13,269 nucleotides of DNA from contig JAUVBP010000009.1 in NCBI GenBank assembly GCA_030591125.1, positions 1 through 13,269 of the forward strand. Reading direction: 5' to 3'. The stretch comes from Candidatus Woesearchaeota archaeon (lineage in GTDB: Archaea; Nanobdellota; Nanobdellia; Woesearchaeales; UBA11576). Under the pieces are notes generated by a model. That model had not been told where the DNA came from, searched no databases, and saw only the letters and a program-made list of their open reading frames with translations. Positions 2,915-3,583 of this stretch are shown here, piece by piece. Within the stretch, counting starts at the first letter, position 1, and the number at the start of each line of letters is the position of its first letter. The translations under genes were made by a program, and so were the position numbers.

Positions 2915-3064
2915 TCATTGTATATTCCTCTTCAGAACTATGTTGCCCTGTCCATCGAGCTCTATCTTAATCTCTGCACCCTTTATCCAACCTTTAGCAT
3001 CAATCAATGCCTTAGGCAGGGTTATCTTGTACTGCTTGTTGTTGTCGAACTGTAGCTTTACCAC
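2915..3064 (-). CDS. AbrB/SpoVT/MazE-like swapped-hairpin DNA-binding miniprotein
   Basis: A 49-residue frame, read as MVKLQFDNNKQYKITLPKAL and onward, ends in ELDGQGNIVLKRNIQ. This is the AbrB-type pattern: a first strand, then Y-x-I-T-L-P-K-A, then K-G-W-x-K-G-x-E-I-x-I, and a closing N-I-V-L-K strand. Family members dimerise by swapping hairpins and bind DNA as transition-state regulators or antitoxins. No toxin-like partner gene is adjacent. The GTG at 3064 is the only sensible start, because an in-frame TGA lies five codons upstream (3077-3079). No good Shine-Dalgarno is present, so the message may be leaderless or may have a long structured leader from upstream. A frameshifted N-terminus cannot be excluded, because an ATG 16 nt upstream is in another frame. 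Confidence 0.75.
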   Translation of the reverse strand: MVKLQFDNNKQYKITLPKALIDAKGWIKGAEIKIELDGQGNIVLKRNIQ

Positions 3065-3115
3065 GCGTATCCCTTGTCATTCAAGATATGTTCCTGTAAA
3101 CATGAAAGACAATCA

Positions 3116-3199
3116 GAAGCAGCGCGTCAATGTCATGGCATCCGCACGGAGGTGTTCGGTATGTCTTTGTTGTTGTCGCTCGATCATAAACGCTGCTTC
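3116..3199. repeat. 9-bp inverted repeat around a 66-nt loop
   Basis: GAAGCAGCG (3116-3124) and CGCTGCTTC (3191-3199) are perfect inverted repeats. They enclose a stretch with no recognisable gene and lie directly beside the tandem hairpins at 3206-3265. They could form the base of a further arm in the same structured transcript. Confidence 0.45.
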
Positions 3200-3205
3200 C
3201 AAATA

Positions 3206-3229
3206 TCAAGAACCCAAAAGGGTTCTTGA
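3206..3229. repeat. Perfect 10-bp hairpin with AAAA loop
   Basis: TCAAGAACCC (3206-3215) and GGGTTCTTGA (3220-3229) are perfect complements around AAAA. The arms recur at the other hairpin-rich locus as TCAAGAACC (551-559) and GGTTCTTGA (665-673). The element lies one nucleotide from the next hairpin. Confidence 0.65.
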
Positions 3230-3230
3230 A

Positions 3231-3265
3231 ATGCCAGAAATGTTCTCGCGAACATTTCTGAGCAT
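3231..3265 (-). repeat. Dispersed hairpin repeat, copy 2
   Basis: ATGC (3231-3234) pairs with GCAT (3262-3265), and AGAAATGTTC (3236-3245) pairs with GAACATTTCT (3250-3259) around TCGC, with an asymmetric internal loop of C against GA. Read on minus it matches the hairpin at 588-615 in outer stem, internal loop and proximal stem, while the apical stem is longer. It is therefore a second copy in opposite orientation. Confidence 0.65.
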
Positions 3266-3286
3266 GTCTAACCTCTTTTTCCCACT

Positions 3287-3455
3287 ACTGCACTAGGGCA
3301 GTTCTTTCTGTTGCAAACCCCTACTGGGTCTCCAAGCAAAGATAATACCGACTCCGAAATCTTTCAGCACCTTTGGCGCTGTAAGCCTTCAGACCGCAAA
3401 CGCTCTGAAGTTCATCGGCATTATCGAGCTTGTAAACCTCTTCGAGGTCTCCAAG
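3287..3455 (-). ncRNA. Candidate structured non-coding RNA or long leader, family unrecognised
   Basis: In minus-strand RNA order the helices are as follows. (1) 3455-3429: CTTG and ACCTC stems with a 3x3 internal loop and GAA tip. (2) An 11-bp helix pairing 3425-3415 with 3351-3341 through one G-U. It encloses (3) 3410-3387, CTTCAGA/TCTGAAG with an inner CG/CG, and (4) 3381-3365, CAGCGCC-AAA-GGTGCTG with one G-U. (5) 3335-3311 is a second copy of hairpin 1. (6) 3302-3287 has a 5-bp ACTGC/GCAGT stem. The two wobbles would be A-C mismatches in plus-strand RNA, so the minus strand is the likely RNA. Hairpins 1 and 5 share 20 of 25 bases, with a C-G to T-A compensatory change. TATA-like boxes lie upstream. 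It could be an independent RNA or part of the AbrB-type leader. I found no match to tRNA, RNase P, SRP or C/D-box signatures. Confidence 0.55.
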
Positions 3456-3503
3456 TACCACGGCAAGTTGCTGTCGTCAAGTATGATGTTGAATGAAGTT
3501 GAT

Positions 3504-3513
3504 ATGTATAATT
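3504..3513 (-). promoter_or_regulatory. Alternative TATA-like box for the structured RNA
   Basis: On minus this reads AAATTATACATA. It would place a transcript start near 3484, about 30 nt before the first hairpin of the structured region. It is a weaker match than the box at 3575-3583. Confidence 0.3.
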
Positions 3514-3574
3514 TAAGGCATTATTTGATAGTTGTTTTAATACCTTGTTTTATGCTTAGAATTATACATACTTA

Positions 3575-3583
3575 GTATATAAA
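3575..3583 (-). promoter_or_regulatory. Strong archaeal TATA box upstream of the structured RNA region
   Basis: On minus the sequence is AAAACATTTATATACT, a near-ideal archaeal TATA box. It would start transcription near 3553, leading into the structured RNA (3455-3287) and possibly on to the AbrB-type gene at 3064. Confidence 0.5.

Follow-up and report, generated by a model that had tools for sequence, protein, structure and literature searches.

A nested hairpin repeat and its likely insertion in the abrB-kefB leader of a Woesearchaeota-type archaeon

Introduction

Does a strongly folded stretch in front of an abrB-type gene mark a regulatory RNA of that gene, or a repeat that has settled in its leader? 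The question is raised by positions 3287-3455 of a 13,269-nt stretch of a Candidatus Woesearchaeota contig (JAUVBP010000009.1), here called the window. The original prediction, made from the sequence alone, placed an unrecognised structured RNA on the minus strand there and offered two readings of it: a new ncRNA family, or a cis-regulator of the neighbouring AbrB-type gene. Hairpin repeats scattered through the genome are familiar from bacteria and organelles. For Woesearchaeota, none of the listed titles and abstract openings of open-licence PMC texts on repeats or RNAs describes such a structure.

Results

The minus strand folds into repeated and nested hairpins

Folded alone, the minus strand from 3455 to 3287 has an MFE of -70.6 kcal/mol, compared with -46.6 +/- 4.0 for shuffled sequences (z -6.0; 0 of 200 as good). 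Within its 341-nt context (3540-3200), the same strand reaches -122.4 (z -7.4; 0 of 100 shuffles as good) and the plus strand -102.2 (z -4.9; 0 of 100 shuffles). These values confirm the structure predicted on the minus strand and, as modelled, its fold is more than chance. The parts of the structure are listed below in transcript order, with R1 and R2 denoting our covariance models of modules B and C.

3430..3455, minus strand: 5' flanking hairpin of type A (CTTG...CAAG), from repeat detection; A-type hairpins precede B in other copies (by eye)
3334..3432, minus strand: B hairpin, with outer helix and linkers, its apical loop enlarged by module C (R1 match)
3415..3425, minus strand: 5' strand of the 11-bp B helix (both folds and R1 match)
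3360..3410, minus strand: module C in the B apex, a pair of hairpins with GGCTTAC between them and GAAAGA at the end (R2 match 3359-3411)
3341..3351, minus strand: 3' strand of the 11-bp B helix (both folds and R1 match)
3311..3336, minus strand: 3' flanking hairpin of type A, second copy (repeat detection)

Mechanical repeat detection recovered the two flanking hairpins (3311-3336 and 3430-3455) as 26-nt copies that are 81% identical, so the duplication that had been described holds; the 3x3 internal loop ascribed to both copies is not fixed, the folds pairing part of it. When the 169 nt are folded alone, the MFE structure joins the two copies to one another, and in the 341-nt context they form separate hairpins. 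The 11-bp helix and the two hairpins that it encloses, also foreseen, are present in the MFE and centroid structures of both minus-strand folds. The stem at 3287-3302 may be part of an older leader rather than of the insert described below.

With Rfam covariance models, the window gave a single sub-threshold match at E <= 1, located elsewhere (2552-2616), and 12 loci, most of them with repeat copies, gave only tRNA and 16S rRNA at E <= 0.5. The structure itself has no Rfam match and was rightly called unrecognised.

Matching leaders in the same genus are short

The folded stretch lies between a promoter and a Shine-Dalgarno-like sequence in the leader of a small gene.

3575..3583, minus strand: TATA box of the leader promoter, TTTATATAC, aligning with the TTTAAATA boxes of the G003:C94 and G001:C62 leaders
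3503..3570 (arms 3503-3521 and 3552-3570), minus strand: A+T-rich inverted repeat by the expected start site, part of the older leader (repeat detection; aligned in two relatives)
3263..3283, minus strand: GGGAAAAAGAGGTTAGACATG, a Shine-Dalgarno-like stretch and an ATG opening a 19-codon frame (by eye; leader alignment)
2915..3064, minus strand: AbrB/MazE-type gene of 49 aa downstream of the leader (PF04014, E 0.001, under the Pfam cut-off)

The G001 ortholog of the 49-aa gene matches the AbrB model TIGR01439 weakly, also below the cut-off. We searched for the leader in 98 genomes, among them four of the window's genus: G000, which is the window's own assembly (67% complete, 226 contigs), and G001 to G003. 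Matching leaders were found in two genus members, at G001:C62 and G003:C94. Shared by all three leaders are the A+T-rich inverted repeat, TGCCGTGGT, the Shine-Dalgarno-like GGRAAAAAGAGGTTAGRCATG and the TATA box, which had been noted as pointing into the structure and is conserved in both relatives. The distance from TGCCGTGGT to GGRAAAAAGAGG is 173 nt in the window, 14 nt in G001 and 17 nt in G003. Because the matching leaders of the same genus have only 14 or 17 nt at this place, most of the 173-nt stretch is an insertion, and parsimony across a few genomes points to a gain in the window rather than a loss in the relatives.

In G001, as in the window, the leader is followed by the 49-aa AbrB/MazE-type gene and, further on, by a KefB-type antiporter. 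Contig G003:C94 stops inside the leader, and the abrB-kefB genes of G003 stand at the end of another contig, C97; the two probably form one locus. No B or C match was found at E <= 1 in the G001:C62 and G003:C94 leader loci or in the abrB locus of G009, which belongs to another genus of the family and has a short abrB leader. A B hairpin does lie directly before abrB in G003, at a different spot from the window's (L320 4259-4299, minus strand), and L319 has a weak C match (E 0.06) at 1301-1353, beyond kefB.

The same region holds other features. GGRAAAAAGAGGTTAGRCATG was considered as a new conserved RNA motif and rejected, as it reads as a gene start at G006 and G009 (by eye). Two near-perfect hairpins, CAGAAATGTTC/GAACATTTCTG and TCAAGAACCC/GGGTTCTTGA, occupy 3203-3266 on the minus strand, between the Shine-Dalgarno-like stretch and abrB; they are missing from the G001 leader, and G003 has other hairpins (by eye). 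A helix, GGAAGCRGCG/CGCYGCTTC, brackets the pre-abrB region in the window and in G001, with an A-U to G-C change, and its G003 halves seemingly lie on two contigs (window 3115-3200, minus strand, with L094 and L095/L344; all by eye).

Module B belongs to a dispersed family with covarying helices

Pieces of the insert match further places in the genus genomes. The pattern CCGATGAGCTTGCGAGTCGG, with up to 3 mismatches, occurs at 27 places in the four genus genomes and at 5 in 35 others, and the reversed pattern, used as a control, matched once across all 39 genomes. Common to the B copies are ATGY..RCAT as the outer arm, a 9-bp helix with RAWAAT and three more pairs, and their apex usually has tandem G.A pairs around a small stem-loop. 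Two motif assignments were dropped: a hammerhead-like reading of the GAYGAG..CGAG apex, for which the other core strands of a hammerhead are missing, and a kink-turn, for which a 3-nt bulge is absent.

From 49 B candidates we dropped the window, L204, two other long-apex copies and one duplicate, and built model R1 from the remaining 44. The percentage of paired positions is biased upward because candidates had been preselected for 6/9 Watson-Crick pairs; this bias does not itself create double changes. Both sides changed in 10 of the 18 pairs, six of them in the long helix. Cells with both-side changes numbered 100, as opposed to 31.0 +/- 7.1 after shuffling and no more than 7 when partners were slid; the copies are related, and these counts are not of independent events.

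Without having seen the window, R1 matches it at 3334-3432 with 46.9 bits (E 5.4e-8, the E-values of our home-made covariance models being rough here and below). The same element scored 33.7 bits (E 0.0023) in the genome-wide scan and was not listed when the window was scanned with filters off, a scan that gave weak matches only, the best at 3231-3266 (12.1 bits, E 1.1). We attribute the low score and the non-listing to the 50-nt insert in the apex. A B copy in G003:C34 is 79% identical to the window over 102 nt, and the default R1 scan aligned that kind of copy across a 56-nt gap.

At E <= 0.01, B was found in at least 11 of the 98 genomes, with at least 54 matches in all four genus genomes (G000 13, G001 20, G002 5, G003 16) and at least 18 in seven of the 94 others (G008 7, G068 5, G007 2, and one each in G013, G047, G052 and G093), the strict filters making all of these lower bounds.

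Of the 45 loci found by an exact-pattern scan of species genomes, 29 come from archaeal MAGs recorded as Woesearchaeota, Nanoarchaeota or simply archaeon. Fifteen of the other 16 lack B flanks by eye; the exception is contig L215 of a Deltaproteobacteria MAG, where the B flanks are complete. Family B is not defined by the apex alone, because Lachnospiraceae, Gordonia and Halorientalis (13 of the 45 loci) carry it with different flanks. These 13 loci were left out of the B collection together with three more non-archaeal ones, L215 among the three. The apex GACGAGCTTGCGAGTC with other flanks occurs in Lachnospiraceae (L194, L210, L213, L216, L230, L235) and Gordonia (L200, L203, L207, L222, L233), and in such unrelated bacteria it is perhaps a convergent, very stable tandem-GA hairpin. 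A pattern for viral contigs was too loose (59 loci, not used), and a further scan gave 0 matches.

Some copies of module C sit at sites with uninterrupted counterparts

Module C follows the plan CTTCARG-hairpin-CYTGAAG-GCTTAC-hairpin-GAAAGA and is about 50 nt long. Model R2, built from 9 C copies with the window left out, matches the window at 3359-3411 with 61.1 bits (E 2.3e-16). Both sides changed in 6 of its 16 pairs, with 18 such cells, again from related copies, versus 6.0 in shuffles; further pair types were no more numerous than in shuffles. For both modules, then, models without the window found homologues in relatives, and these show the true covariation that the original prediction had proposed to look for, pairs of the 11-bp helix included.

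C was found at E <= 0.1 in 13 of the 98 genomes, outside the genus mostly as single, weak matches. Sixteen copies in three genomes exceed 45 bits (G003 11, G001 4, G000 1), nine of which were in the model. An R2 match in L362 (18.3 bits, E 3e-4) falls within an open frame of 232 aa, and we regard it as a chance hit. Among the 16 copies, GGCTTA follows the first hairpin in 10 and GAAAGA ends the module in 10; the preceding base is A in 14 and the following base G in 14. Their length varies, 45 to 53 nt, without following a three-nucleotide step, which speaks against protein coding.

For 19 copies, the 16 above and three weaker ones, we joined the 14 + 14 flanking bases and searched for the result in the fetched loci. 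For 10 of the 19, at about six kinds of site, there is an uninterrupted counterpart that differs at no more than 4 of the 28 bases. The controls gave 0/19 when flanks were trimmed by 6 on each side and 1/19 when flanks were swapped among copies, the single case linking two copies whose sites are of one kind. Copies that share one kind of site or host repeat may descend from one insertion. With [C] marking the module, the filled site GATGAG[C]GTTACGAGTC in G003:C34 compares with the empty GATGAGTTTACGAGTC in a neighbouring hairpin, and GAGTCA[C]GGCCTCGG in G003:C11, C12 and C15 with the empty GAGTCAGGCCTCGG. The window's site is GATGAA[C]TTTCGGAGTC in the B apex; this copy stands outside the ten, its best empty match being a B hairpin elsewhere in its own genome with 5 mismatches of 28. 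Most C copies inspected by eye occupy a loop or junction that belongs to another hairpin. Any target-site duplication at C is limited to about 1 nt, and terminal inverted repeats are absent, its ends not being inverted.

Some loci are more elaborate. L304 (G002:C51 9346-9419) holds a double C module, apparently a C hairpin repeated within another, next to a CAAACGCGAAGCGTTTG hairpin. In G003 and G001, A-B and C modules are housed in a larger repeat of ~250-330 nt, whose closing helices are nested (AAAACCGAGGCC..GGCCTCGGTTTT and others further in; L316, L317, L318, L303, L346, L347, L349; by eye). The ~110-390 nt upstream of the G003:C12 C copy, used as a query, matched in 4 of 10 genomes; these matches were not used.

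Surroundings of the repeats and competing explanations

In the genus genomes, 36 of the 38 B clusters lie outside predicted genes, as placed by our simple codon-based gene finder. A-type hairpins, several of them followed by B hairpins, stand 2-10 nt after tRNA genes in Woesearchaeota MAGs and genus genomes (L205, L219, L223, L226, L236, L249, L348, L350 and others).

That the stretch is a functional cis-regulatory RNA of abrB-kefB, attenuator- or riboswitch-like and acting between promoter and Shine-Dalgarno sequence, is improbable. Its place in the leader, on the gene's strand and behind a conserved promoter, would suit such a role, as would the B hairpin near abrB in G003, but the abrB leaders of G001 and G009 have no B or C match at E <= 1, and the same modules stand beside other genes in either orientation (18 on the same strand as the upstream neighbour and 16 opposite, for 34 clusters with that neighbour in view). 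Wobble pairs at the apex also hint at an RNA: at the third apex pair, 42 B copies have C-G 21 times, T.G 21 times and C.A never; the nine outer B pairs have G.T 8 times versus A.C 3 times, without a clear difference (p 0.23). Selection on an RNA strand is possible, as the apex T.G excess over C.A and the conserved C junctions and B apex hint. Covariation alone does not make a leader structure a riboswitch, because a dispersed folded repeat gives the same signal. Since the same hairpin modules sit, nested, in many other places in related genomes, A-B(C)-A at abrB has the look of a structural repeat that spreads, rather than of a switch dedicated to abrB. The cis-regulatory half of the original prediction is not supported: the relatives' matching leaders lack the structure, and dozens of other, mostly intergenic places hold its modules. 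Of the proposed new ncRNA family, what stands is a new dispersed structured repeat, which may or may not act as an RNA.

The surroundings could instead reflect a dispersed small RNA or an RNA-processing or terminator family, working in trans or at 3' ends, with tRNA-linked A-B arrays as its normal site and the window as a displaced copy. All eight B clusters behind a tRNA lie on the tRNA strand, the helices covary strongly, and T runs close many of the A hairpins (by eye); in loci that were picked for holding B, 12 of 34 tRNAs have a hairpin with a GAY..RTC apex starting 2-10 nt behind them, a figure that, coming from such loci, is not a genome-wide rate. We consider this explanation quite unlikely, given that clusters with an upstream protein gene show no consistent orientation (10 same strand, 16 opposite) and that paralogues differ in whether they carry C at a given place. 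A chance fold or a protein-coding sequence is far less probable still, and we take it as refuted. An open frame does span 3321-3461, and in the closest homologue, G003:C34, one frame stays open over the stretch that was compared; yet the residues matching the window's peptide lie in two different frames of that homologue, the matching frame shifting midway, and chance is opposed by the z of -6.0 and by homologues with compensatory changes.

Discussion

The stretch at 3287-3455 is, in our judgement, probably a nested palindromic repeat, A-B(C)-A, present as a non-autonomous insertion in the abrB-kefB 5' leader of a Woesearchaeota-type archaeon. Module C would have entered the apical loop of B, and the A-B(C)-A block would have become seated in the abrB leader. 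We infer that such modules are non-autonomous elements, which spread by entering the loops of hairpins and probably move as hairpins of single-stranded or cruciform DNA (or RNA), on which an enzyme supplied elsewhere would act in trans. The insert would be transcribed with abrB and would add stable stem-loops between promoter and Shine-Dalgarno sequence, most likely as a tolerated passenger with little effect on abrB; regulation of abrB-kefB by the insert is conceivable but unsupported.

An extension of the insertion reading, which we regard as unlikely, would make module C a mobile element of a new kind, a three-way-junction insert of ~50 nt entering the loops of other folded nucleic acids without a scar, mostly after A and before G. 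It might move by its own RNA or single-strand structure, for example through a reversal akin to splicing, and would in this way give rise to nested folded arrays in DPANN archaea. Modules seated exactly in the loops of other modules, with conserved junctions and covarying stems, would make a compact natural system in which to study how insertion is guided by folded DNA or RNA.

Several known systems resemble these repeats. A hairpins behind tRNA genes, with T runs after their stems (by eye), could be intrinsic terminators on that strand; the orientation of the clusters to protein genes is not consistent. REP/BIME palindromes have a conserved 5' tetranucleotide, GTAG or GGAG, at the hairpin foot. 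In PMC2817692 they accompany RAYT transposases and reach over 100 copies. Our repeats resemble REP/BIME elements in being dispersed extragenic imperfect palindromes, some in arrays of alternating hairpins, and differ from them in the nested module C, in number (5-20 B matches per genus genome) and in the lack of a Y1 (RAYT) transposase: a search with PF01797 was positive in one of six genomes, G007, and negative in all four genus genomes (assemblies 67-93% complete). Prokaryotic MITEs (PMC10969869) are likewise short, non-coding and dispersed; module C, without terminal inverted repeats and with a duplication of at most ~1 nt, is not classed among them.

The hairpin elements of sponge and fungal mtDNA (PMC2800124) are short, dispersed double-hairpin or repetitive hairpin-forming elements of one or two hairpins, many of them intergenic, some inside rRNA genes, and potentially mobile. 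A, B and C are likewise short, dispersed units of one or two hairpins, and module C has two adjacent hairpins, dispersed, in loops or spacers (loop position by eye), as expected of a double-hairpin element. Sponge elements, in the same source, keep their stems and vary their loops, whereas here the stems covary and the junctions (GGCTTAC, GAAAGA) and the apex (GAYGA..GAGTC) are conserved. Unlike the organellar elements, the modules have an archaeal host and are nested, with uninterrupted counterparts; the kinship seen between these short sequences is one of shape only. On the best reading, A-B(C)-A is closest in kind to REP/MITE repeats and to the organellar double-hairpin elements.
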